Assembly: GCF_029029505.1 (NCBI RefSeq)
Contig: NZ_JAKJSD010000016.1
Coordinates: 1 to 64,000 of the forward strand
Reading direction: 5' to 3'
DNA from: Ancylomarina sp. DW003
GTDB taxonomy: Bacteria > Bacteroidota > Bacteroidia > Bacteroidales > Marinifilaceae
Length of the DNA stretch: 64,000 nucleotides
Under the pieces are notes generated by a model that had not been told where the DNA came from, did not search any database, and saw nothing but the letters and a program-made list of their open reading frames with translations. Both the position numbers and the translations under genes were made by a program. Position 1 is the stretch's first letter, and the number at the start of each line of letters is the position of its first letter. Positions 4,113 to 50,860 of this stretch are shown in pieces.

Positions 4113-5008
4113 ATTGCTTGATGTAAATCTATTGTTTGTACACTTAGTTGTATTTTATGCCAAAGTCTTTTTAGTTCTGTTGAGAGCTTTGATTCCGGAG
4201 CATATTCAATAACTGTTTTTCCGTTAATCATGGCCTCAACCATATTTTTATCGAAAGGCAGTTTGGTTAGCAGAGGAACATTTTGGCATTTCAAATAGGA
4301 TTCAATTTGTTGACTTATTTCAAGGTTAAGGTCGTATTTATTTATAAGGGCAAAACATTGAATGTTGAATGATTTAATGAGCTTGATTAGTCTGTCAGCA
4401 TCGTGAAGACTTGACATGCTTGGCTCGATGATGATGAGCGCACGATCAGTTCCCGTTAAAGAGGCAATTGCGGCACAACCTATGCCCGGAGGCCCATCGT
4501 TAATAATCCACTCAGCACTGCTGACTTGAGCTATTTCTTTGGCTTTTTTACGAACTTGCGTAACTAGCTTTCCTGAGTTTTCTTCACCAGGTCCCATTTT
4601 AGCATGTACCATAGGACCAAATCGAGTATCAGAAACATACCAGTAATTATTGGTGTTTAAGTCTGAATGGATAGCTTGTTGAGGACAAATACGTTCGCAC
4701 AATCGACAACCTTCACATTGAAAAGGATTAATTTTGAGTTGTTCGTTCTTGTCTTCGTGTATGGCATCGAAGCGGCAATGACTTAAACACATGCCACATT
4801 GTGTGCATTTTGATGTATCGATACTCGCTTTCCATCCACTGGAAAAAGTGTGTTGCTCTTTGATTGTTGGATGAAGAATCAGATGTAAATCTGCAGCGTC
4901 AACATCATTGTCAGCTAGTACTGAGGATTTTGATAAACTTGCCAATGCTGCAGTTATTGATGTTTTACCTGTTCCTCCTTTTCCACTTAAAACTGTTAAT
5001 TCCATCAT
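4109..5008 (-). CDS. MinD/Mrp-type P-loop ATPase with inserted 2x[4Fe-4S] ferredoxin domain (copy 1)
   Basis: A 299-residue SIMIBI-class ATPase with the deviant Walker A motif GKGGTGKT at residues 9-16. Two CxxCxxCxxxC-type clusters (CTQCGMCLSHC and CEGCRLCERIC) lie between about 63 and 115, inserted into the ATPase fold. DGPPG further on is the Walker B-like/switch segment. These MinD-ferredoxin proteins occur in pairs in many anaerobes, usually beside NifX/NifB-like genes, and probably couple ATP hydrolysis to Fe-S or metal-cluster handling. The true reaction is not established. It overlaps the next gene upstream by four bases (5005-5008), so the two subunits are likely made together and may form a heterodimer. 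Confidence 0.88.
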   Translation of the reverse strand: MMELTVLSGKGGTGKTSITAALASLSKSSVLADNDVDAADLHLILHPTIKEQHTFSSGWKASIDTSKCTQCGMCLSHCRFDAIHEDKNEQLKINPFQCEGCRLCERICPQQAIHSDLNTNNYWYVSDTRFGPMVHAKMGPGEENSGKLVTQVRKKAKEIAQVSSAEWIINDGPPGIGCAAIASLTGTDRALIIIEPSMSSLHDADRLIKLIKSFNIQCFALINKYDLNLEISQQIESYLKCQNVPLLTKLPFDKNMVEAMINGKTVIEYAPESKLSTELKRLWHKIQLSVQTIDLHQAI

Positions 5009-5877
5009 GCGTAGATCTTCTTTTTCAATTGTTCTGTTATTTTTTCAAACTCATTTGAAATAGCTGTAGGAATGATATTTAATAATTCACCTTTGGCATA
5101 TTGTGATGCAAAATTTTGCGTGAAAGGAATCTCCCCAAGAATATCAATTTGTTCTAGTTGGAGGTAGTCGTATATAGCTTGATTTCCCAGGCCAACTTTA
5201 TTTATGATGACAGAGAAAGGTTTATGTAATTCTTTTACCAGTTCAACCATCAATTTTAAATCGTGTAATCCAAAAGGAGTGGGTTCAGAAACAAGGATAA
5301 CATAGTCAACATCACCAATGGTTTCTACCACGGGGCATGATGTTCCCGGAGGTGCATCGTAAAGTGTAATGTGATTTGCTTTGTCAACCTGTTTTTTTAG
5401 CTCTTTAATCACCAATGTTTGCATGGCAGAACCAATTTTAAGCTCTCCTTCAATTAGATTAATTCGACCTTCCTCTTGATAAAAGTTGATTTGACCAATG
5501 GGTAGTTCTGTTTCCTCTATAGCACTCTGTTCGCATGCAACAAGGCAAGCTCCACAGGAGTGGCAAAGACTGGAATTAACTTGTGCAAGTGATGCTGATG
5601 GAATGATACTTATGGCATTAAACTCACAGTATTCAGCACACTTTTTGCAGAAATTGCATTCATTTTTGTCTATTACAGGTATCTGTTGACTAAGCTTGTG
5701 TGCTTTCTTCTTTTGAGCTTTGGGGAAGAAAAGTAAATCGTTTGGTTCTTCAACATCGCAATCTACAAGTTGAATTTTATCTGTAATTCTTTTTTTTATA
5801 AAGTGTTGTAAACAAACCGAAACACTTGTTTTGCCAGTACCACCTTTTCCACTGGCGATGGCAATTTTAAATGACAT
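5005..5877 (-). CDS. MinD/Mrp-type P-loop ATPase with inserted 2x[4Fe-4S] ferredoxin domain (copy 2)
   Basis: This 290-residue paralogue and partner of the downstream gene has GKGGTGKT at residues 10-17. The ferredoxin insert carries CNFCKKCAEYC and CHSCGACLVAC, followed by DAPPGTSCP in the switch region. The two copies share architecture but are clearly diverged. Pairing with an adjacent homologue, joined by a 4-base overlap, is the usual arrangement of the family. It is cytoplasmic. A role in assembling or inserting Fe-S or Fe-Mo type cofactors is inferred from the adjacent NifX-like gene 72 bases upstream. No nitrogenase gene is present in the window, so nitrogen fixation should not be assumed. 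Confidence 0.88.
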   Translation of the reverse strand: MSFKIAIASGKGGTGKTSVSVCLQHFIKKRITDKIQLVDCDVEEPNDLLFFPKAQKKKAHKLSQQIPVIDKNECNFCKKCAEYCEFNAISIIPSASLAQVNSSLCHSCGACLVACEQSAIEETELPIGQINFYQEEGRINLIEGELKIGSAMQTLVIKELKKQVDKANHITLYDAPPGTSCPVVETIGDVDYVILVSEPTPFGLHDLKLMVELVKELHKPFSVIINKVGLGNQAIYDYLQLEQIDILGEIPFTQNFASQYAKGELLNIIPTAISNEFEKITEQLKKKIYA

Positions 5878-5949
5878 ATATTTTTGATATTAAAATATAA
5901 TCGGTGTATTGTGAACACCGATTACTGTAATTTATTGACGGAACATTTT

Positions 5950-6291
5950 TTAATGATCGCAGTAATTGGCTGAAAATGCCAAGCTGTTTTTAAGAAAGGA
6001 ATTTGTTAATTCTATGGCTGATAATTTAGGAGCTCCTACAAATACATTAACGCCATTCTGATTAAAAAGTTGAATGGCTTTTTGTCCCATCCCACCAGCT
6101 ATAATGTCGCTAACACCTTTTTCTGCTAACCACATAGGAAGTAAACCAGGTTCGTGCGGAGGAGGAGTCAACCTTTCTTCAGAAACTAATTTTTCATTCT
6201 CAATATTAAGAATTGCAAAATAACTACAGTGTCCAAAATGGGCATCTAGCATATTTTGCGTGTCTACAGGTATTGCAATTTTTTTATTCAT
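5950..6291 (-). CDS. NifX/NifB-type dinitrogenase iron-molybdenum cofactor-binding domain protein (copy 1)
   Basis: About 113 residues, starting MNKKIAIPVDT. An in-frame ATG ten codons earlier (6321) is possible but adds a non-conserved tail, so the inner start is preferred. The family hallmarks are visible: an AHFGHC-type motif near the N-terminus, GGMGQKA in the middle, and a C-terminal NYCDH ending found in many stand-alone members. Related small proteins bind iron or Fe-Mo clusters, but outside nitrogen fixers their role is undetermined. It lies upstream of, and probably in the same transcript as, the two ferredoxin-ATPase genes, matching a widespread anaerobe gene neighbourhood. Confidence 0.87.
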   Translation of the reverse strand: MNKKIAIPVDTQNMLDAHFGHCSYFAILNIENEKLVSEERLTPPPHEPGLLPMWLAEKGVSDIIAGGMGQKAIQLFNQNGVNVFVGAPKLSAIELTNSFLKNSLAFSANYCDH

Positions 6292-6594
6292 CTGTCTAAA
6301 TATTTGTTTTTTAAAGGTCATATGGAAGTCACCTAAATAACCAAGCCTTTCGTTTTTGGGCTTTGCTAATGGCTCGCTTCATATGTTTATTTTTATTTGG
6401 GGTAATCTGTTCTTGTATTGAAGGTTTATAAAAAGAGGATGTCCAAAATATTCATATCATTCTGTAGTAAATACACATAAGACAATTTTCCAAACCTAAT
6501 CTCTCGTGTATTTAAAAGAATAATCAGTTGTCCTTGTTTTTCAGACAACCTCTTTCTTTGTTATACCAAATTAAAGGTATAGATACTTAAAGAC
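6292..6594. other. Intergenic stretch with paired hairpin words
   Basis: No gene is visible. On the minus strand the RNA after the DUF5320 gene carries AAAGAGGTTGTC, a short hairpin GTTGTC/GACAAC, and about 100 bases later GGACATCCTCTTTTT. The outer words could pair and look like a terminator stem held far apart. The word AAAGAGGATGTCCAAA at 6432-6447 recurs exactly in the terminator at 19413-19428. Confidence 0.35.
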
Positions 6595-6774
6595 TTAGCA
6601 TTTACCTCGTCTTCTGTTTTGTCTTCCTTTACCATTTCCTGAATTCTTAAATTCATCTTTGTTTTGATCTTCGGTACGCTTAACCACATTTTTATTAGCA
6701 GCATTGCATTTCCCTAAACCTCTTCCAGTTTGTGAACCTTTTCCTTCAGGTCCCATTCCATTAAATCTTGGCAT
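6595..6774 (-). CDS. DUF5320-like small glycine/basic-rich protein
   Basis: This is a 59-codon gene, easily missed because of its size. It begins MPRFNGMGPEGKGSQTGRG, matching the N-terminal glycine-rich signature of DUF5320 proteins (MPRxxxxGPxGxGPxTGRGxGxC). It continues with a hydrophilic basic tail ending GRQNRRRGKC. A strong ribosome-binding site, AGGAGG at about 6779-6784, precedes the ATG, which is unusual in this AT-rich, SD-poor genome. DUF5320 genes repeatedly neighbour NifX-like and DUF134 genes, as here: the NifX-like gene ends 21 bases upstream. Function is unknown; the two cysteines and low complexity would fit metal binding or a scaffold, which is speculation. Confidence 0.82.
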   Translation of the reverse strand: MPRFNGMGPEGKGSQTGRGLGKCNAANKNVVKRTEDQNKDEFKNSGNGKGRQNRRRGKC

Positions 6775-6795
6775 AAAACCTCCTTTTTTTAACGA

Positions 6796-7113
6796 TTAAA
6801 CAACAATTCGGTCAACAATTTCTTTAATGTTTGTTGAGTCTTGAATAATGACCATTTGTATGTTGACCTTTTCTAATAATTCTTTTGCTTTGGGACCAAA
6901 ATCACCTGAAATGATTTTATCAACCTTTAATTCGATCATCAGTTCTGCAACTTTGGTTCCTGCACCATGGTTTGAATCGATAAATTCATTTTTGATAAAG
7001 CGCCCCTTCATACTTTCACTATCCAGTAGGTAAAACCATTCAGCTCTACCAAAGCGTTTATCAAATTGTGATGTCAATTCATTTCCTGATGATGTGATAA
7101 CAATATTACTCAT
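6796..7113 (-). CDS. NifX/NifB-type iron-molybdenum cofactor-binding domain protein (copy 2)
   Basis: A 105-residue member of the same superfamily as the gene at 5950-6291, but lacking the terminal CDH. It starts MSNIVITSSGNEL, keeps the FDKRFGRAEWF segment where the first copy has AHFGHC, and has SGDFGPKAKELL at the position of the GGMGQKA motif. The loss of the HC pair implies a different or no metal site. It sits 5 bases after the DUF134 regulator gene and before the DUF5320 gene, so these three very probably form one transcript. A small cofactor- or metal-binding carrier is the best guess. Confidence 0.85.
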   Translation of the reverse strand: MSNIVITSSGNELTSQFDKRFGRAEWFYLLDSESMKGRFIKNEFIDSNHGAGTKVAELMIELKVDKIISGDFGPKAKELLEKVNIQMVIIQDSTNIKEIVDRIVV

Positions 7114-41144: not shown

Positions 41145-42092
41145 TTATTTTATATCTCTAATAAAATTATCAAAATAGGTAATTGTCTTGATTAAGCCTT
41201 CTTCAAGCTGAATATTGGGAGTCCAATTGTTAAGTCTCTCTTTAGCTAAGCTGATGTCAGGCTGACGTTGCATGGGATCATCCATAGGTAGCTTTTCAAA
41301 TATAATCTTTGATTTAGATTGAGTCAATCTAATAACTTCCTGAGCTAATTCTAATATTGTAAACTCGTTGGGATTACCAATATTAACAGGACCTATAAAA
41401 TCTTTTGGAGAATTCATCATTCTAATGGCACCTTCTACTAAATCGTCGACATATTGAAAGCTTCTGCTTTGCGATCCATCACCATAAATTGTAATGTCTT
41501 GATTTTTTAGAGCTTGCATGATGAAATTTGAAACGACACGACCATCATTGGGATGCATATTGGGACCATAGGTGTTGAAAATACGCATGATTTTAATGTC
41601 GACCTGGTTCTGCTTATGGTAATCCATAAACAAGGTTTCAGCACATCGTTTACCTTCGTCGTAGCATGAGCGGATTCCAATAGGATTCACATTCCCCCAA
41701 TATTCTTCAGTCTGAGGATGAATTTCAGGATCGCCATAAACTTCACTTGTTGAAGCTTGTAATATACGAGCCTTTATTCTTTTAGCTAATCCTAGCATAT
41801 TAATAGCACCCATAACTGACGTTTTTGTCGTTTTAATGGGATTGTACTGGTAATGAACAGGAGAGGCCGGGCAAGCCAAATTATAAATCTGATCAACTTC
41901 GGCAAAATAAGGTTGAATTACATCATGACGAACCAACTCAAAGTAAGGGTGAGGTAGGAGGTGTTCAATGTTGCGCTTGCTACCCGTGAAATAATTATCG
42001 AGACAAATGACATCGTGTCCATCTTTTATAAGTCTATCACATAAGTGTGATCCTATAAATCCGGCACCTCCAGTAACAAGTATTCGTTTCAT
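41145..42092 (-). CDS. UDP-glucuronate decarboxylase-like NAD-dependent sugar epimerase
   Basis: A 315-residue extended short-chain dehydrogenase. The N-terminal NAD motif is [14 protein letters not shown] (8-21). The catalytic tyrosine and lysine are in [10 protein letters not shown], the form typical of UDP-glucuronic acid decarboxylase rather than of dTDP-glucose dehydratase. [17 protein letters not shown]-like and [18 protein letters not shown] segments agree. It would make UDP-xylose from UDP-glucuronate in the cytoplasm. It ends the minus-strand surface-polymer run, 139 bases after the alcohol dehydrogenase gene, suggesting xylose in the glycan made here. Confidence 0.9.
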
Positions 42093-42231
42093 AAAGCAAT
42101 TAGTTGATATAGAAGTCTTCTCAGATCAAAAATCTAAGAATAGTTATTGTTTGGATTTTTGATTAATGACGATAATTTCGATCTGTTCTCTTACATAAGA
42201 ATCAAATTCAATATATGAATATTTATCAAAC

Positions 42232-43320
42232 TCAGAGAATTTTCTTAAATAAATTTTCGATGTATTCTTTTGTCAGCAAGGCTGGGTTATTCTTCAATCT
42301 TTCCAAATTGCAGTCGGATAATTTTGAAATCTGCTCAGCTTCAATTCCCAACTGGCTTAATTTCGTACTCAAACCTATTTGATTCCAAAATCTTTCGATT
42401 TTCACAACACCATCAGATAGGCTATCTGCATTTATCAGGTTTAATATCTTTTGGATATCTTCTTTAGCATATTCGTAATTAGCCTGCATGATATGAACTA
42501 AAGTTATTGCAACCGCATGTCCGTGTGGCACATCAAAAAAAGATGTCATCTTATAGGATAGTGCATGACTTGCTGTGGTCTTGGAAATATTTATGGCTTT
42601 TCCAGCCCAATAAGCACCTTCACTGACTTTATCCTTGGCATTATAATCATTATCGACAACAGCTTCCTCAAGGTTATTCCAAACCAAGCTAATCGCTTTC
42701 TCTGCGTATTCTTTTGATTCTACATTTCCTCCTGTCGCCCACATAGACTCGATTGCCTGACAAAGAGCATCGGCTCCTGTACAGGCAGTTAAATAAGCTG
42801 GTGTAGAATATGTAAATTGAGAATCTACAATAACATATTCAGGTAAAATGTATTTGTGTGCAAAAGAGTATTTTTCTCCATCAATATACATCACCGCAAA
42901 ATGAGTCGCCTCACTTCCTGTTCCAGCTGTTGTTGGTATAGCAACAAACGGGAAAGGTTTTTGATCCAATCTATTTGCCTTAATGGTTTCTACCAGATTT
43001 TCCTGAACCTGTGATAAACTATTAATTAGTTTTGCAATATCAATGGCACTTCCACCACCAATGGCAATTGTTAATTCACAATTCTCACGCTTAAACAGCT
43101 CAATTCCCTTTTCAACATCTTCCAGCTTGGGATTCTCCTCAAAATCGGAAAACCTAAAATATGGAGTCCCTTTTAAAAGGGACTCCATTATTTTTTGAGC
43201 TCCGGATTTTTCGTAAGAGGATTTACCTGTTACCAGAAATACCTTTTTGCCCGAATGTAATTTTAATATCTCCGATAAATTGGAGACACTATTCTTACCT
43301 ATGTATATATTCTCAATCAT
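42232..43320 (-). CDS. Iron-type alcohol dehydrogenase, probable phosphonoacetaldehyde reductase
   Basis: A 362-residue group III (iron-containing) alcohol dehydrogenase. Nucleotide binding is GGGSAIDIAKL (88-98) and IPTTAGTGSEAT (128-139). The metal-site region reads GADALCQAIES: D184 is kept but the usual histidine four residues later is Q188, as in PhpC-type phosphonoacetaldehyde reductases. H252 and the PHGHA histidines (266, 268) are present. Its start overlaps the stop of phosphonopyruvate decarboxylase by one base, so it is the natural third step: phosphonoacetaldehyde to 2-hydroxyethylphosphonate. No aminotransferase gene is present in the locus. Substrate assignment rests on this context. 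Confidence 0.83.
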   Translation of the reverse strand: MIENIYIGKNSVSNLSEILKLHSGKKVFLVTGKSSYEKSGAQKIMESLLKGTPYFRFSDFEENPKLEDVEKGIELFKRENCELTIAIGGGSAIDIAKLINSLSQVQENLVETIKANRLDQKPFPFVAIPTTAGTGSEATHFAVMYIDGEKYSFAHKYILPEYVIVDSQFTYSTPAYLTACTGADALCQAIESMWATGGNVESKEYAEKAISLVWNNLEEAVVDNDYNAKDKVSEGAYWAGKAINISKTTASHALSYKMTSFFDVPHGHAVAITLVHIMQANYEYAKEDIQKILNLINADSLSDGVVKIERFWNQIGLSTKLSQLGIEAEQISKLSDCNLERLKNNPALLTKEYIENLFKKIL

Positions 43321-44441
43321 TATTTCAAGAAATCCATCAAGTTTTCCTTATTCTCAACAGGAGTTGTCGTTGGTCGTCCCAAATCATTTCTAGCTCCTTT
43401 TTTCACTCGAATTTCCAAAATTGAAGGCCCGTCGCTTGCCAGTAATTTAGGAAATACAGATTCTATAGATTCAATTGAATCAGCAAAAAAGGCTTCTTTA
43501 TATCCAAAACCCTTAGCGATTTGACCGAAGTCAATATCGAATCCAATAGTTGGCTGACCTCCTACTGAATCATGAGATCCATTGTTGAAAACAATATGCT
43601 TTAGATTCTTGCAATCTGCAGCTGCAATAATTCCAAAAGAACCTGTATGCATAATGATCGCTCCATCGCCATCAAAACAATAGACGTTTTTAGAAGAATG
43701 CATAGCTACACCCATGGCAATTTGAGAAGCGTGTCCCATTGACCCCACAGTAAGAAAATCTTTCTCGTGTCCGGTATTATGCTTTTCTCTTATCTCAAAT
43801 AATTCTCTTGATATCTTGCCTGTAGTAGAAACAACAACAGAATCTTCTTCTATCATCTCAACCACTTTTTCGATGGCTTCTTCTCTTTCCGGATAAGTAT
43901 TTACAGCATCCTTTGCTGCAAGTTTATAAGTTTCAAAAGTTCCCTTTTTAACTAAAAATACATATGGACTTGAATTCTCCTTACAAGTTGCAAGTGCTTT
44001 TTTCACTTGTTCATTTGCCTCTGCTGTATCTGCACTCAATACTTCACTAGGAATCTGCATCGCATCAAAAAGGTCTTTCGAAACTTTCCCTTGCTTTACA
44101 TGCTGAGGCTCATCTTTCTTTCCAGGTTCTCCACGCCATCCAACAAAAAGAATCATTGGAATTTTGTACACATCCTCATCTGCCAAAGACAATAAAGGGT
44201 TTACAGCATTACCAATTCCTGAGTTCTGCATATATACAGCAGGAACTAATCCTGTTGCCAAATGATAACCACTTGCTAATCCTACAGAAGCTCCTTCATT
44301 TGAAGCGATAATATGCTTATCTGCAGGATAATTATCGAACATATAAGCAGAGAGCGAAGCCAAAAGAGAATCCGGAACTCCTGTATAGAAGTTCACATCA
44401 TTGCTCTCCAGATTTTTAAAAAATGATTTTAATTCTATCAT
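43320..44441 (-). CDS. aepY: Phosphonopyruvate decarboxylase
   Basis: A 373-residue thiamine diphosphate enzyme. The N-terminal pyrimidine-binding domain has the catalytic glutamate in ASNEGASVGLASGY (E49). The C-terminal domain has GDGAII (258-263) with the NN pair at 286-287, forming the TPP/Mg motif. Length and the GGQPT segment match phosphonopyruvate decarboxylases. It decarboxylates phosphonopyruvate to phosphonoacetaldehyde, pulling the unfavourable mutase reaction forward. It lies 7 bases downstream of the PEP mutase gene and overlaps the dehydrogenase gene. Confidence 0.94.
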   Translation of the reverse strand: MIELKSFFKNLESNDVNFYTGVPDSLLASLSAYMFDNYPADKHIIASNEGASVGLASGYHLATGLVPAVYMQNSGIGNAVNPLLSLADEDVYKIPMILFVGWRGEPGKKDEPQHVKQGKVSKDLFDAMQIPSEVLSADTAEANEQVKKALATCKENSSPYVFLVKKGTFETYKLAAKDAVNTYPEREEAIEKVVEMIEEDSVVVSTTGKISRELFEIREKHNTGHEKDFLTVGSMGHASQIAMGVAMHSSKNVYCFDGDGAIIMHTGSFGIIAAADCKNLKHIVFNNGSHDSVGGQPTIGFDIDFGQIAKGFGYKEAFFADSIESIESVFPKLLASDGPSILEIRVKKGARNDLGRPTTTPVENKENLMDFLK

Positions 44442-44448
44442 TCTAATC

Positions 44449-45750
44449 TTATTTAGTACCAGGTATTAGTTCTAGAATTTCCTTAATTGGCATGCATTTA
44501 TCATTTGCATCCGACGAGCGTCCATTAGCTAAAATCGATTTTGCAACATCCATCATTGCTGGATATGAAGCACGTAGCATGTGATTTGCATAGATCACCA
44601 CATTAACTCCAACTTTACTAAATTCTTCTTCTGTAATGTGGTTGAATGTTGATGGTACAACTACAATAGGTGTGTTTTTATTATCTTTTCTGAATCGTTC
44701 ACAGAATTCAATAATATCTTCACCCGTTTTCTCTTTACTGTGAATCATGACACCATCAGCACCAGCTTTAACATAGGCATGTGCTCTTTCTAAAGCATCT
44801 TCAACAGATTTTCCTAAAATTAAAGACTCTACACGAGCGATAACCATGAAATCCTCAGTAACCTGAGCCATTTTCCCAGCTTTAATTTTAGCAGAAAAAT
44901 CTTCAATTGTATCTTGAGTTTGTGGAACTGCAGTACCGAATAATGAGTTCTTTTTAAGACCTGTTTTATCTTCGATGATAACAGCAGATACACCATGACG
45001 CTCCAATGTTCTTACCGTAAATACGAAATGCTCTACTTTTCCTCCGGTATCACCATCGTAAATAATTGGCTTGGTTGTACATTCCAAAGTATCATTTAAA
45101 CCATGCATACGTGTTGTGATATCAACCGCTTCGATATCTGGCTTACCTTTAGACGTAGAATCAGTTAAACTACTCGACCACATGCCATCAAATTCCTGAT
45201 TCATACCGTTTACACTCACCTTAGCATTCTCAGCAATTAATCCTGTTAAACCACTATGTGATTCCAAAATACGCACAACTGGTTTAGCTTGAATTAGCCT
45301 ACGAAGGCGTTTCATTCTAATTTCAGGAGTCGTCCCAATAGATTTAACCTTCTCGTTTAATTTTGAAGAAGAGATTCCTTGTGTATATGGTACATCGATA
45401 ACCTTACCATTCCATTCTTTAATGGTGTCAATTACACGTTGTCTTGTTTCTTGCTGAATTCCCTCTTTCCAATCGTCACCATGAACCACAAAATCGGGCT
45501 TCACATTCATCAGGTTAGGTACATAATCAAGCGTGTCCTGAGGGATTACTTTTTCAACTCCTTTTAGATTTTCTACGATCATTTTTCTTTGCTCGTAATC
45601 TAGATAAGGTAGTCGCTTGTAGCTTGCAATGGCTTTGTCTGTTAGTACCCCAACAGTTACGCTACCCAATTTAGCACCTTCTTTAATAATGTTTAAATGT
45701 CCAGGATGAATGATATCTGCACTCATGCCAATGTATACATTCTTGCTCAT
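44449..45750 (-). CDS. aepX: Cytidylyltransferase-phosphoenolpyruvate mutase fusion
   Basis: A 433-residue bifunctional protein. Residues 1-135 form a HIGH-type nucleotidyltransferase of the glycerol-3-phosphate cytidylyltransferase class: HPGH at 15-18, HGDDWKEG near 90-97 and ISSSK at 126-130. Residues about 150-433 are PEP mutase of the isocitrate-lyase superfamily, with DGDTGG at 232-237 and the diagnostic [10 protein letters not shown] at 260-269. The mutase makes phosphonopyruvate from PEP, founding the C-P bond. The fused domain could then activate the final phosphonate with CTP. It is coupled by a 4-base overlap to the transferase gene upstream. The nucleotidyl acceptor is inferred. 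Confidence 0.94.
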
Positions 45751-46835
45751 GATATATTATTTTTTAAATGTTTTACTATTCTACGGGCAACATTTCCATC
45801 TACATCTCCAACTACTTTTTTTACTAAATCTTTTCTTCGATTGATGTTTTTGTTGCTATTTTCTAAATTGTCTTTCAACAGATTAACCATCTGCTTATAG
45901 TTGTATGCATTGTCACCTACATTCCACAACTCAAAATTAATGATATCTAATCTCTTATTTAGCTTATTAGGTATTAATTTATAATACCATCTTGATTTTA
46001 CAAATCGATTTACAACAACAGGTTTTCCCATAGCTGCAAACTCGTAGATTGCAGCTGAAAAATCAGATACCAAAATGTCTGCCACTTGCATAAACGGGAT
46101 TAGTGAGTTTTCTGATAAGTCTGCAAAATATACATTTTTGTGTTGATTCCATTTTTGAATTAACTGTAGCTCTTTGGCATACTTCTTCCTCATATAAATG
46201 TAAAAATGAGGTTTAATTATAATATTATAGTCCGAAAGTATTTCTGGTAAATTCTTAGGGATTTTTCCAATTGAAGAAGGATAAAAAGTTGGTGCATAAA
46301 GAATAGTTTTCTTTTTCGGGTTTAACTTATACTTTAGCCTTGATTCATGGATTATATTTTCATCTATATAAAGCATAGAATCCAATTTTGAATACCCAAC
46401 AACAACTGTATTATCCTTTTTTTCTGGATGCGCACGAAGAATATTATCCCGAATAAATTCTGTTTCAACAAATCGAATATCGAAAGCAGTAAGTTCATCT
46501 CTTAGATAAACATTCTTTCCTCCCCAACATCCATGAAAAATGGATACTGTTTTTTGAAAAGTGATATTTGTTGGCTGTATAGCATTCCCAAATATTAAGA
46601 AATTACAAGAGAGCCCTTTGGTTTGTAAAGATTGATATTCAATATCATGTTCAATACAATATGCTATAGTCGTTTTATTCTGTTCTTCTAAATTTCTTGA
46701 TTTTTCGTCTGGAATTACAATTGCAAATGAGAGTTCATTGGCCTTTAATTCATCCATTACTGAAATAAAATGAGGTAGGAAGTAATTATTTTCCAGATAA
46801 AATAAGGCAAAGTATGTATCTCTTGTTTCTGTCAT
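45747..46835 (-). CDS. CDP-glycerol glycerophosphotransferase-like (TagB/TagF) protein
   Basis: About 362 residues from [17 protein letters not shown]; an in-frame ATG at 46877 would overlap the upstream gene by 32 bases. Family features are [31 protein letters not shown] and [21 protein letters not shown]. These GT-B-fold enzymes move an alditol phosphate from a CDP carrier to a lipid-linked glycan on the cytoplasmic face. It overlaps the cytidylyltransferase-mutase gene by 4 bases. Rather than CDP-glycerol, for which no synthase is present here, it may use a CMP-phosphonate donor. That is the central inference for this locus. Confidence 0.85.
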
Positions 46836-46845
46836 AACGAACGAC

Positions 46846-48234
46846 TTATTTATGCGATTTTTTAGAACTAAAAACACCTCTTTTAGATATTCTTAACCAT
46901 AATCCGATGTTATCTCCTAACAACTCTCCCTTATCTAAAGCACATGCTACATCTAATTTAAATGGGAGTTGTTTAAGAGGTATATTCACTTCAACAAGTC
47001 CAGAAAACTGGTTGAGTGTTGAAGTATATGGCGTAGCATAGGTTCCGTAGTTGTGAGTATAAGTCAGGTAAGTTTTGTAAGGAAAACCAAATAATTGACC
47101 GCCTATTCCAACATGAAAGCCTTTAAACCTATTGTTTGCAATACCAATCGTGCCAGTTGTAAATAATGGAGAACCTATAGTTCTGTTATGGTGAGTCCAG
47201 CCTGAGCGATACTCTCCATGATTAAAATAACTATCTCTACCTCCAATGATATGATCACCTTCTTTAAAAATCGATCCACCTTGATAAGATGTGTGGTAAT
47301 ATTCCATTACGACCGATTGAATTATGGCATCGTTTCTTTTTCTATTTTTATAGAAAATACCATACAAGCCATCGGGCTTATTATTCATTCGTGTTCCCGA
47401 ACCATCCTCAAATATAGTTTGATAATAGGCGTTTAAATGGAATTTTTTATCATTGTAATAAATATCAAATCGATAACTTCCGAGATGGTTTCCTAAGCGA
47501 TACTCATCATTACCAAAAGAGCCCGCATCATCACCTTCAATCCTGAAAATTTTTATGTATTTACTTAGTGAACCCGAAATATCTCCTTTGGTAGGGTGTG
47601 TCCCTGCCCATAAGGCATAATGCTCAAGCCCTGCACTTGCGCTTAGTTTATAATCTTTAAAAATTCGTAGGTACAGATTCTTATGATGAATTCTGGCATT
47701 ATCAATATAGCGGTTATCAGTTGTTATACCATCTGACAAAAGTCCTTTAAAGGCGATAAATCCTTTTGTAAATGGAATGTCTGTCCACTCCGGAACACTT
47801 ATCTCATATTGAGGGTATGCTCTTGAATTATTAGAATACAGTAAATCACCATTGGTAGATGATAAACCATCATATCTTGAGGCGTGATTTTTTTGACCTA
47901 AATAAAGATTAATGAATTTCCAACGAAGCCCAAGATAGGCTTGATTCAGTAAAAGTTTAGATTCGTTTCCAACATAGCCAAGCCCTGATGCTTTCCACAT
48001 AAAATCAAAAGAGTTGCTTTGCTTTTCTTCGAAATTCATTCCCAGAGAAATATCGCTCATAGCAAATCCATGACTTGGAATGATACCGTCTTTATTTGAA
48101 TGTAACCAAAATGGAAGCGTATTATCTTTGCCTATGGCTGAGGAGATACCAATTTCATAATTTGTCTTTTTCTGAGCAAATAGAATTATACTCGTAAACA
48201 TCAAAGTTATAAATAAACTTACCCTTAAATTCAT
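46846..48234 (-). CDS. Wzi-family capsule assembly / outer-membrane barrel protein
   Basis: About 462 residues starting MNLRVSLFITLMFTSIILF, a signal peptide cleaved after FAQ; an upstream in-frame ATG at 48291 would mask the signal. Alternating beta strands run throughout, with aromatic-rich turns such as LGLRWKFINLYLGQKNHAS and FHLNAYYQTIFEDGSG, matching the Bacteroidota capsule assembly Wzi family. Wzi anchors capsule at the outer membrane. Upstream of the transferase gene by about ten bases, it ties the phosphonate genes to a cell-surface polymer. Confidence 0.82.
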   Translation of the reverse strand: MNLRVSLFITLMFTSIILFAQKKTNYEIGISSAIGKDNTLPFWLHSNKDGIIPSHGFAMSDISLGMNFEEKQSNSFDFMWKASGLGYVGNESKLLLNQAYLGLRWKFINLYLGQKNHASRYDGLSSTNGDLLYSNNSRAYPQYEISVPEWTDIPFTKGFIAFKGLLSDGITTDNRYIDNARIHHKNLYLRIFKDYKLSASAGLEHYALWAGTHPTKGDISGSLSKYIKIFRIEGDDAGSFGNDEYRLGNHLGSYRFDIYYNDKKFHLNAYYQTIFEDGSGTRMNNKPDGLYGIFYKNRKRNDAIIQSVVMEYYHTSYQGGSIFKEGDHIIGGRDSYFNHGEYRSGWTHHNRTIGSPLFTTGTIGIANNRFKGFHVGIGGQLFGFPYKTYLTYTHNYGTYATPYTSTLNQFSGLVEVNIPLKQLPFKLDVACALDKGELLGDNIGLWLRISKRGVFSSKKSHK

Positions 48235-48514
48235 ATGTTTTCTTTTAAAATCAAGCGAACAAAGATAAGTATTATAATTTTGGTTTTTCATAAAAGAAGG
48301 TGTTTTATAAACGGTTTAGTTCGTATCTAATTTTGTTTAATTGCTGTATCAAAATTGAATTAGAATACTATTTTTCGTTTCTTTGCATTTGGAGAAACAT
48401 CTCTTCTATTCACCACAAGATTTGGTATAAAGATTACTATTGTAGCGAGTAAGAATTCTGTTTTAAACTTTGGCAGAGATACTCGCTTTATAAAATTGAT
48501 TAAAAAAATATTCA

Positions 48515-49549
48515 ATGAGAATTGTTTTATTCTGCGAGCAGAAGTACACCATTACCATGGTCGAACCAATATACGACGAGGCTGTAAATGAAGGAATACA
48601 CGAAATTTTATGGTATATACACAAACCAAATATTCCTGAGTTTAACCTTGATGTACCCTGGACTAATAATATTGATGATGTTTATCAATTTTCTCCCGAT
48701 GTAATTTTTGTTCCTTGTAATGTAGTTCCTTACAATTTACCAGGTGTAAAAATTCAAATTTCACATGGTTATGAATGTGGTGAGAAAAGGTACTTTAGAA
48801 TTCGAGACTATTTTGACCTTTACTTAACACAAGGGCCTTATTTCACTGAAGGGTATAAGAAATCTTTGAAGAATAGAAGAAAAGCTGAGGTTGTTGAAAC
48901 CGGATGGTCAAGAAGGGATATCATTTTAAGAGATCTTAATAAATATGATACTTATAAAGAGGAGCTTCTACGTGAATATGGCAAGAAGAAAGTTGTTTTA
49001 TATGCACCAACCTTCCCACCCTCAATTACCTCATTACCCTATTTGCAAGAAGGGATTCAGCGATTTGTTGAGGAGAGAGATGATGTTCTATTGATTTTAA
49101 AGTTTCACCCACTAACCGATCCAAAATGGATGAAGGAGTATAAAGAAATTGCTACTTCAAATAAAAGCATGCTTTGGATGGCGGATGTTGACATCAATAA
49201 ATTCCTTCTGATTTCTGATGTGATGATTAGTGATTCATCTTCTGTTGTTTTTGAATTTCTGTTTTTGGACAAACCCGTAATAACCTATAAGAATGCATCT
49301 CCTGAAAAATATTGGAGAGATATAAACGATCCGCTATTACTAGCTGAGGCGTTTGAAAAAGAAATGACATCAGATGAATTTGCTGAGAAAAGAAAGGCTG
49401 CAATTCAATATTTTGATCCATATTTTGATGGAAAGTCGTGCAAAAGAATGTTGGATGCTGCAAGAAACTATATTGAAGAATACGGTGTGCCTCAAAAGAG
49501 AGAATTAGGCTTTTTTCGTAGAAGAAAATCCTTAAAACGATTTAAGTAA
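48515..49549 (+). CDS. Second CDP-glycerol glycerophosphotransferase-like protein
   Basis: A 344-residue protein of the same family as that at 45747-46835 but clearly divergent. Shared features are ISHGYECGEKRYF, VLYAPTFPPS, LILKFHPLTDP and MISDSSSVVFEFLFLDKPVIT, which holds the SSxxxE donor-site pattern. It lacks membrane segments and probably associates peripherally with the inner membrane. It is transcribed away from the phosphonate operon; its ATG lies about 280 bases from the Wzi start. The last base of its stop is the first base of the next gene (TAATG), so it is coupled to the kinase-like gene. Confidence 0.83.
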   Translation: MRIVLFCEQKYTITMVEPIYDEAVNEGIHEILWYIHKPNIPEFNLDVPWTNNIDDVYQFSPDVIFVPCNVVPYNLPGVKIQISHGYECGEKRYFRIRDYFDLYLTQGPYFTEGYKKSLKNRRKAEVVETGWSRRDIILRDLNKYDTYKEELLREYGKKKVVLYAPTFPPSITSLPYLQEGIQRFVEERDDVLLILKFHPLTDPKWMKEYKEIATSNKSMLWMADVDINKFLLISDVMISDSSSVVFEFLFLDKPVITYKNASPEKYWRDINDPLLLAEAFEKEMTSDEFAEKRKAAIQYFDPYFDGKSCKRMLDAARNYIEEYGVPQKRELGFFRRRKSLKRFK

Positions 49550-50295
49550 TGGACTATAAAATAAATCCAAAATTTCTTAAACTTGAGAAGGGAATTCTCG
49601 ATATTCCAAGAATATTTGAAAGTGAAGGAGATATTATTCAAAGTGGTCGGAATTTAATTAAATCAATAGAAATTGAAGGCTTAAAGCTTAATGTCAAGTC
49701 TTTTAAGGTTCCAAATTTAGTCAATAAATATGCTTATCGTTACTTGAGAGAATCTAAAGCTAAAAGATCTTTTTTATATGGATGCAAACTATTGAATTCA
49801 GGTGTTTCAACCCCGACGCCTGTAGCTTATATAGAATACTCTAAGCGAGGAGGATTGACCAGAAGTTATTACATCTCAATACATGCAGAATATGATTATA
49901 CATTCAGAGAATTAATTGGTCAAAAAATTGAAGACATAACAGAGGTATTGATAGAATTCACTCGATTTACCTATAATTTCCATAAGCAAGGAATTTATTT
50001 CATTGATCACTCTCCCGGGAATACACTGATTAAAGAGAAAGAATCTGGTTTCAATTTTTATTTGGTAGATCTTAATCGCACCAAATTCACTTCAATTGAC
50101 ATGAATTTGGGTATTAAAAATTTCTACAGACTAGGCTCTAATGAAGAAATGGTAAAAGTTATGGCAAAAGAGTACGCCAAACTGTGGAATGCTGATGAAG
50201 ATTATGTGTTTGAACAAATGTTAGAGTTAACTATGAGTCATAATGAATCTGTGCGTAAAAGAAAAGCAAAGAAAGCCCTAAGTAAAAAGTCATAG
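49549..50295 (+). CDS. Lipopolysaccharide Kdo/heptose kinase-like protein
   Basis: A 248-residue protein-kinase-like fold of the Kdo kinase/WaaP/InaA group. The catalytic loop is FHKQGIYFIDHSPGNTLI, with the D and N expected for phosphotransfer. The Mg-binding aspartate is in FYLVDLNRTKF, and an N-terminal lysine-rich beta region precedes. It would phosphorylate a core sugar, most plausibly Kdo, at the cytoplasmic side. Coupled to a glycerophosphotransferase-like gene, it places this pair in LPS core or surface glycan decoration. The exact acceptor is unknown. Confidence 0.83.
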   Translation: MDYKINPKFLKLEKGILDIPRIFESEGDIIQSGRNLIKSIEIEGLKLNVKSFKVPNLVNKYAYRYLRESKAKRSFLYGCKLLNSGVSTPTPVAYIEYSKRGGLTRSYYISIHAEYDYTFRELIGQKIEDITEVLIEFTRFTYNFHKQGIYFIDHSPGNTLIKEKESGFNFYLVDLNRTKFTSIDMNLGIKNFYRLGSNEEMVKVMAKEYAKLWNADEDYVFEQMLELTMSHNESVRKRKAKKALSKKS

Positions 50296-50313
50296 GTTCA
50301 AAATAATTGTTAG

Positions 50314-50345
50314 AAAAGGAGGGCTATTGCTCTCCTTTTTTATTT
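50314..50345. terminator. Bidirectional terminator overlapping the NUDIX 3' end
   Basis: AAAAGGAG (50314-50321) pairs with CTCCTTTT (50332-50339), followed by T residues. The stop codon of the minus-strand NUDIX gene (50324-50326) lies in the loop. Confidence 0.65.
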
Positions 50346-50860
50346 ACAAATGTTTGAATGATTTTGGATATTGAACCTGTACAAATGTTTTCAAATACGA
50401 GATCTGATAGCTTGCAAAAACGGAATTCACTAATATCATCTTTCGCATGCATATTATTAAAATTTTTGACAGTACAGATGTAAGCTAAATCGAGCGTGAA
50501 AACAGATAATCCACCAAAAATATATTCGTTGGGAGAAGACATAAAATAGTCAAATTTGTCTATGTCGAGATTCAATTCTTCTTTTATTTCCCTAATAAGC
50601 GCATTTTCTGCTGTTTCCATAATATCAACAAAACCTCCTGGGAGATCAAGCATGCCTTTATGAGGATTTACAGCTCGTTTTGTTAATAGAATTTCATCTT
50701 TATCATTGATTATAAGAGCAGCAACGGCAGCAGAAGAATTTATATATAAGTGAAATTGACACTTATCACACAAGAATGATTGATCTTCATGAAAAGTAAA
50801 TTCATTACTGCCACATTTAGGGCAAAAGTGAATTGTATTTTGGGGTAATGTTGATTTCAT
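50324..50860 (-). CDS. NUDIX hydrolase with N-terminal zinc ribbon
   Basis: A 178-residue protein. Residues 12-38 form a zinc ribbon (CPKCGSNEF...CDKC). The NUDIX box is at about 76-97: GGFVDIMETAENALIREIKEEL, which keeps the GX5EX7REUXEE core. Ribbon-NUDIX proteins include NADH pyrophosphatase-like enzymes, but length and sequence here fit a general nucleoside-diphosphate-type hydrolase; the substrate is uncertain. It is monocistronic, convergent with the kinase-like gene, and cytoplasmic. Confidence 0.87.
   Translation of the reverse strand: MKSTLPQNTIHFCPKCGSNEFTFHEDQSFLCDKCQFHLYINSSAAVAALIINDKDEILLTKRAVNPHKGMLDLPGGFVDIMETAENALIREIKEELNLDIDKFDYFMSSPNEYIFGGLSVFTLDLAYICTVKNFNNMHAKDDISEFRFCKLSDLVFENICTGSISKIIQTFVNKKGEQ

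Follow-up and report, generated by a model that had tools for sequence, protein, structure and literature searches.

Close counterparts of the system described here are found in the synthesis of an antibiotic and of bacterial surfaces. In the fosfomycin pathway of Streptomyces, Fom2 is a phosphonopyruvate decarboxylase (Ppd) and FomC is an alcohol dehydrogenase. Fom1 fuses a cytidylyltransferase (CyTase) domain to phosphoenolpyruvate (PEP) mutase (PepM), its CyTase domain makes CMP-2-hydroxyethylphosphonate (CMP-HEP) (PMC6697681), and the three enzymes together convert PEP to CMP-HEP (PMC8158854). The Pnt pathways with PntC, and the aminoethylphosphonate (AEP) capsules of Bacteroides, decorate surfaces by way of PEP mutase, Ppd and a cytidylyl-activated intermediate. 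The GCT/TagF-like capsules of Actinobacillus serotypes 3 and 7 use a cytidylyl-activated donor and a PF04464-type transferase (PMC8262930). We compared these systems with a locus of Ancylomarina sp. DW003 that lies in a window of 64,000 nucleotides (contig NZ_JAKJSD010000016.1, positions 1 to 64,000), and which combines a Fom1-type fusion with a TagF-like transferase.

By family, the CyTase-PepM fusion, Ppd and iron-type alcohol dehydrogenase (Fe-ADH) of this locus are those of the Fom1-Fom2-FomC trio. Taking the explanation as a whole, we consider it probable that the locus is a hydroxyethylphosphonate (HEP) allele of a variable surface-glycan locus with swappable donor modules, in which the HEP module makes CMP-HEP and the transferase TagF1 attaches HEP to a surface glycan. 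The genes of the locus are as follows.

41145-42092, minus strand: UXS, a UDP-glucuronate decarboxylase relative, native flank (structure match 4gll, E 1.6e-127)
42232-43320, minus strand: Fe-ADH, iron-type alcohol dehydrogenase, proposed phosphonoacetaldehyde reductase (PF00465, PF25137)
43320-44441, minus strand: Ppd, phosphonopyruvate decarboxylase (TIGR03297, 487.7 bits, cut-off 312.5)
44449-45750, minus strand: CyTase-PepM, Fom1-type fusion (PF01467 N-terminal; PEP mutase TIGR02320, 419.5 bits, cut-off 319.55)
45747-46877, minus strand: TagF1, PF04464 transferase, proposed CMP-HEP:glycan transferase (PF04464, 74.8 bits)
46846-48291, minus strand: Wzi-like outer-membrane protein (PF14052, 64.6 bits)
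48515-49549, plus strand: TagF2, PF04464 protein paired with KdoK (PF04464)
49549-50295, plus strand: KdoK, Kdo-kinase-like protein (no Pfam family)
50324-50860, minus strand: NUDIX gene, the other edge of the variable locus (family scan, synteny)

All but the NUDIX gene had been named in a preliminary description of this DNA, and for these eight open reading frames (ORFs) the coordinates and families agree with the ORF list, Pfam and NCBIfam. The Kdo-kinase label is weak, as KdoK scores 27.4 bits with NF002475 against a cut-off of 142. The coupled minus-strand run proposed earlier is real for Wzi, TagF1, CyTase-PepM, Ppd and Fe-ADH, which overlap or are 7 nt apart, but does not extend to UXS, 139 nt past Fe-ADH. 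Two further genera of the family (L151, L153) have this block as well, and therefore the arrangement is not due to chance. CyTase takes up about residues 1-137 of the fusion and PEP mutase residues 149-432. TagF1 has 376 amino acids, with PF04464 as the sole match over cut-off; its GTG start may be set too early.

Compared with solved chains, the fused CyTase domain matched 5x3d at 202.9 bits, far above all others, with 63.6% identity over the aligned stretch, while the glycerol-3-phosphate cytidylyltransferase (GCT) 1coz reached 49.1 bits. We take 5x3d to be the CyTase domain of Fom1; its database title is phosphoenolpyruvate phosphomutase only. The HxGH and GISS motifs are intact in the window protein (HPGH, YTQGISS). 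The domain had first been described as GCT-like; it is indeed a PF01467 cytidylyltransferase, but of Fom1 type and only distantly GCT-like. Since it is Fom1-type, there is precedent for a fusion of this kind making CMP-HEP (PMC6697681, PMC8158854), and the comparison with the Fom1-Fom2-FomC families supports the HEP route and CMP activation that the preliminary description had put forward. One PEP mutase scored above cut-off in the whole genome, and a ten-residue stretch of its mutase domain fits the motif EDKXXXXXNS as given in PMC6697681.

In the proposed pathway, PepM would convert PEP to phosphonopyruvate, Ppd would decarboxylate this to phosphonoacetaldehyde, Fe-ADH would turn the aldehyde into HEP, and the fused domain would make CMP-HEP from HEP and CTP. 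TagF1 would then use CMP-HEP to place the HEP phosphonate on a glycan hydroxyl in the envelope, releasing CMP, and TagF1 homologues at the same site in relatives would use CDP-ribitol or CDP-glycerol likewise. We read gene identities, synteny, module exchange, co-occurrence and the tree from sequence; every reaction at the locus, and the donor chemistry of the sister modules, we infer from families. For the acceptor, Wzi suggests capsule, and the Kdo-kinase-like gene, with heptosyltransferase-like genes in relatives, suggests the lipopolysaccharide core just as much. Because HEP retains a free hydroxyl after transfer, TagF1 might even add HEP head to tail and build a chain whose backbone contains C-P bonds, the phosphonate equivalent of a teichoic acid. 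We find this doubtful; if true, poly-HEP would arise by a donor-cassette swap in a locus that makes polyol-phosphate surfaces elsewhere.

Rather than being the surface group itself, CMP-HEP could also lead on to a different phosphonate, either methylphosphonate or a diffusible compound like that of the fosfomycin pathway. Methylphosphonate is known to be made from HEP (PMC8931226, PMC9381506), and fosfomycin from CMP-HEP (PMC8158854). Against this, no HEP-consuming family appears among the ORFs of at least 100 amino acids at 41145-50860, transferase and Wzi genes are coupled to the pathway instead, and sister alleles carry polyol-type donor modules at the same site. By family, none of the locus ORFs is Fom3, FomD or Fom4, for which the whole genome was not searched. 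We regard a role as an intermediate as unlikely.

Four congeners, in which no PEP mutase was found, have KdoK and UXS at the same site beside NUDIX and DapA, and vary by genome in Wzi, TagF2 and TagF1. Their donor modules are an IspD-SDR fusion in two (G395, G398), which by its families would be CDP-ribitol-like, a HIT-GCT fusion in one (G396) and none recognised in the last (G397). In other genera of the family the module is HIT-GCT (G407), GCT plus SDR (G410) or GCT plus a glycerol-1-phosphate-dehydrogenase-like gene (G419). The sister GCT-like proteins score 90.7-105.8 bits with TIGR01518, below its cut-off of 165.4, so CDP-glycerol is a likely but not certain product of these modules. The HEP module itself is present in three genera of the family, and its third allele, in G495, stands between a 230-aa IspD-like gene and NUDIX. 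The seven complete loci of one genus (g183) include one HEP module, two HIT-GCT, two SDR+GCT and two with none recognised. Across the family the site shares NUDIX, KdoK and often Wzi and TagF-like genes.

For the counts that follow, we used KdoK to find the site. KdoK matches are present in 51 of the 56 family genomes and absent in five, and the comparison covered 51 KdoK regions in 47 genomes of the family, leaving out G405, G417 and G484, where the KdoK matches are weak. NUDIX flanks 21 of the 51 regions. From these we dropped two on short contigs (L169, L175) and one with the locus cut at a contig end (L176), and the remaining 18 plus the window make 19 loci. Free-standing IspD genes of 168-249 aa at the flank were not counted as donor modules.

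Among the 19 loci, all complete, the 12 that have a recognised donor module each contain a TagF1 relative (at least 168 bits; 12 of 12), and the seven that have none do not (best 41 bits; Fisher p 2.0e-5, only a guide as the loci are related). Leaving out the three HEP loci, the counts are 9/9 versus 0/7 (p 8.7e-5), and retaining L176, which has neither a TagF-like protein nor a module, makes them 12/12 versus 0/8. We also built a tree of 16 TagF1 proteins, which we picked from loci with a donor module. The three HEP proteins, from three genera, form a clade with support 1.000, and five HIT-GCT proteins, also from three genera, form a clade with 0.998. The donor labels need six changes on this tree, a number reached by 2 of 20000 shuffles. 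An AlphaFold2 model of TagF1 (pLDDT 75.2, pTM 0.77) has as its best fold matches TarL with CDP-ribitol and TagF (the top 15 matches, at 15-18% identity), so that TagF1 combines a PF04464 match with a predicted fold like that of TagF/TarL, as in the CDP-polyol phosphotransferases of this family. From the strict association with donor modules and a tree that largely follows the donor, TagF1, and not TagF2, is likely the HEP transferase.

TagF-type transfer, as first proposed, is supported by comparison. Of the two TagF-like proteins, however, TagF1 alone follows the donor; TagF2 and KdoK are also found at loci that lack phosphonate genes, and we rejected this pair as HEP-specific. That TagF2 instead of TagF1 uses CMP-HEP seems quite unlikely. 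The TagF2 proteins of the three HEP loci are 81-84% identical, yet relatives of TagF2 also neighbour KdoK at loci that show no phosphonate gene, some genomes have KdoK fused to a PF04464-like region, and it is TagF1 that tracks the donor modules. We rejected Wzi as HEP-specific as well, since its closest relatives include non-HEP alleles (G490 at 717 bits, G402 at 639 bits). Its identity between the window and the other HEP loci is 69.4% (G406) and 76.0% (G495), and between G495 and the HIT-GCT allele of G490 it is 68.8%. By these comparisons TagF2, KdoK, Wzi and UXS are not phosphonate-specific.

The preliminary description had placed UXS in the phosphonate set, and we took it out: all four congeners have UXS at the same site with 91-93% identity to the window copy, it is native to the genus there, and we did not see it in the G406 and G495 regions. 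The neighbouring genes are similarly congener-like, with 82-85% identity for w50931, 93-96% for w52457, 84-85% for DapA and 74-94% for the four genes beyond, as far as w55875. The inner genes are different. For TagF1, Wzi, TagF2 and KdoK of the window, identity to congeners is at most 40-46%, depending on the gene (23-46% when all congener copies are counted), versus 69-81% to G406, from another genus, and CyTase-PepM and Ppd are 99.8% and 98.7% identical to G406. NUDIX is of little help here, at 72-75% to congeners and 69% to G406. In G495, NUDIX is 74-87% identical to its congeners and TagF1 35-39%; its Wzi, however, shares 68.8% with that of G490, a HIT-GCT allele. Third codon positions agree at 75-83% in the Fe-ADH, Ppd and CyTase-PepM genes versus 44-61% in the other five genes compared, so by this measure the HEP genes are either shared more recently or more constrained than the rest of the locus. 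The HEP module would thus move between lineages as a block, taking particular versions of TagF1, TagF2 and KdoK along, while the edges of the site remain native.

CyTase-PepM fusions were surveyed in 44 loci, 34 from a scan of one genome per species and 10 regions added from a PEP-mutase search of 395 genomes of the phylum and a search of 58 relatives. We left out four with a fusion score under 300 bits (L039, L090, L091, L092), so 40 remain. There is some redundancy, as L007 and L008 are from one genome and L006 and L151 cover the same region, and in some short loci an absence carries little weight. A locus was called Fe-ADH-type if an Fe-ADH match above 25 bits lay at most four ORFs from the fusion and PhnW was missing from that stretch. 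This gave 24 Fe-ADH-type loci, nine PhnW-type and seven assigned to neither. All nine PhnW-type loci also hold a PntC-like protein (at least 64 bits by at least one query; L093 was itself a query), and 18 of the 24 Fe-ADH-type loci have no PntC-like match at E 1e-5 in the DNA examined. The pattern fits a division in which the fused CyTase serves HEP and PntC serves AEP. Of the 24 Fe-ADH-type loci, 19 have a CyTase with 60.6-70.5% identity to 5x3d, compared with 54.5-57.6% in the nine PhnW-type.

CyTase residues 43-46 read SYKR in both the window and 5x3d, in a loop that aligns with the TagD region where Lys44 and Lys46 touch the CDP-glycerol phosphates (PMC8262930). The loop is present in 22 of the 24 Fe-ADH-type loci and none of the nine PhnW-type (Fisher 1.4e-6, although the sequences are not independent). 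We also tried TagD Arg113 as a discriminator and dropped it, as the aligned GCT-like enzymes likewise have no Arg there.

Fusions do stand beside TagF-like genes in part of the survey. In the DNA examined, a PF04464 match was found in nine of the 24 Fe-ADH-type loci (six of them seeds of the profile, and two, L009 and L034, weak) and in none of the nine PhnW-type. The profile was seeded with the two window proteins and with proteins that lie directly after the alcohol dehydrogenase (L015, L016, L018, L019, L029), directly after Ppd (L008, where no alcohol dehydrogenase was seen) or directly upstream of the fusion (L085). TagF-type transfer is therefore, on these gene neighbourhoods, one common solution among HEP-type loci and not the sole one.

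The survey bears on the alternative of a CMP-AEP module like that of Bacteroides capsules, served by an aminotransferase gene outside the locus. The fusion does occur with PhnW in 9 of the 40 loci, of which L093 (genome G401) belongs to the same family. The Ancylomarina sp. DW003 genome (G000), in which the preliminary description had noted no aminotransferase at the locus, has no AEP transaminase above cut-off anywhere by two models (best matches TIGR03301 at 38.6 bits, cut-off 360.8, and TIGR02326 at 39.2 bits, cut-off 400.8); all 14 control genomes likewise give matches under these cut-offs. PhnW/AepZ is not found above cut-off in G000, G406 or G495, no scanned locus ORF matches PF12804 (the PntC family), and Fe-ADH occupies the position where PhnW stands in most AEP loci. 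One candidate for a hidden AEP maker was a PntC-like protein fused to a PLP enzyme on contig C2 of G000 (83.5 bits). We rejected it because its PLP part is CobD-like and because G395 and G398, in which no PEP mutase was found, have close copies of it. We judge a CMP-AEP module very unlikely. Least probable of all is that TagF1 receives CDP-glycerol from the fused domain, with the phosphonate a separate product that is not activated: the domain has PF01467 and TagD-like motifs, and GCT-like enzymes serve sister loci, but the gap between the 5x3d and 1coz scores, a TIGR01518 score of 53.3 bits where the sister GCT-like proteins have 90.7-105.8 (cut-off 165.4), and the fusion to PepM all speak against it.

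Several observations weigh against the proposed explanation. As PhnW too accompanies such fusions, a fusion by itself is no proof of HEP. Six of the 24 Fe-ADH-type loci show some PntC-like match, which is fused in L031, L033 and L034, separate and weak in L035 and L027, and only 23 bits in L010; five of these (L027, L031, L033, L034, L035) are only 39.4-56.1% identical to 5x3d. In 15 of the 24 there is no PF04464-like match in the DNA examined. The value of SYKR as a HEP signature is weakened by the SYKRR of the GCT-like enzymes of G419, G427 and G482; the loop separates HEP from AEP types within the fusion family without proving HEP alone. On the TagF1 tree, genus labels are also non-random (seven changes, reached by 154 of 20000 shuffles), the three IspD-SDR proteins form no clade, and the TagF1 of G408, whose locus has a long HIT-GCT plus SDR, groups with congeners having GCT and glycerol-1-phosphate dehydrogenase-like genes. 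The confidence of the TagF1 model is moderate at its pLDDT, UDP-GlcNAc 2-epimerases come next in its fold list, and other PF04464 proteins are present in the genome. Loci with no recognised module could hide one of a kind absent from our queries. HEP consumers are absent by family among the locus ORFs, and MpnS, HepD and Fom3 were not sought genome-wide. Finally, Fe-ADH is below the cut-off of every specific NCBIfam model listed (the best are ErcA, 201.9 of 550, and PsrA TIGR03405, 187.9 of 423.7). We know of no NCBIfam model for PhpC/FomC itself, and Fe-ADH does adjoin PepM and Ppd, the context of such a phosphonoacetaldehyde reductase.

Compared with the systems described at the start, the locus differs from the fosfomycin cluster in its link to Wzi and a TagF-like transferase. 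From the Pnt and Bacteroides AEP systems it differs in having Fe-ADH in place of a transaminase, a PF01467 Fom1-type domain in place of the PF12804 PntC, and a coupled TagF-like transferase. The predicted donor, unlike that of the Actinobacillus capsules, is a phosphonate. The phosphonoglycans of Glycomyces and Stackebrandtia, in a different phylum, are surface phosphonoglycans like those proposed here, and they contain HEP. In open-licence literature we found no Fom1-type CMP-HEP module with a TagF-type transferase that is swapped with polyol modules at one site, and no paper on phosphonate with TagF or with glycerophosphotransferase. Each part is known, and PntC enzymes are expected to activate a variety of phosphonates for surfaces (PMC6697681), so what is new is the combination and the module exchange. 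A three-gene set of the kind with which the fosfomycin pathway begins is here located in an exchangeable surface-polysaccharide locus of a marine bacterium. The locus suggests that many bacteria employ antibiotic-type chemistry (Fom1) for their surfaces, and that a phosphonate head group can be exchanged for a phosphate one as a cassette. The locus names a donor pathway together with one concrete transferase, and its sister alleles are natural controls.

Some loci of the survey have features of their own. In L014 and L093, HxGH of the fused CyTase is changed to HPGL, beside separate PntC-like and PhnW genes; the second His, which is lost, is listed as essential in TagD (PMC8262930), and the domain looks like a decayed one retained in the fusion. 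In L031, L033 and L034 the PntC-like domain is fused to CyTase-PepM beside Fe-ADH, and the GISS motif is poorly conserved. Directly after PhnW, L084 encodes a protein of about 800 aa with no Pfam match (4699-7104), and similar-sized genes are present in L086-L088, which are AEP-type loci. KdoK is fused to a PF04464-like region in proteins of 607-615 aa in L143, L173, L174, L177 and L179 (confirmed by Pfam in L143 only, by our own profile in the rest).

The PntC-like/CobD-like fusion of G000 (C2, 132000-150000, L201), which is also seen in L196, has 602 aa and lies beside a 407-aa TagF-like gene. Its PLP part is closest to a threonine-phosphate-decarboxylase-like enzyme, and the close copies in G395 and G398 are from 2 of 8 relatives' regions examined. 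Several sister loci have TagF2-KdoK beside an NTP-transferase-like gene and a class I/II PLP enzyme. This pair, or its fused version, may provide a CDP-ethanolamine-like donor, possibly for TagF2.

An Rfam scan of the window gave 0 matches. Promoter-like sites in the window number 44 versus 46.1 in shuffles, and terminator-like sites 9 versus 5.3. A plasmid search matched 327 records, of which two cover at least 80% of the query; the best is a Segatella copri plasmid (54.8%). Inside the Fe-ADH coding sequence there is a 28-bp perfect palindrome at 43161-43188, and this part has a second match in L006, at 90%.

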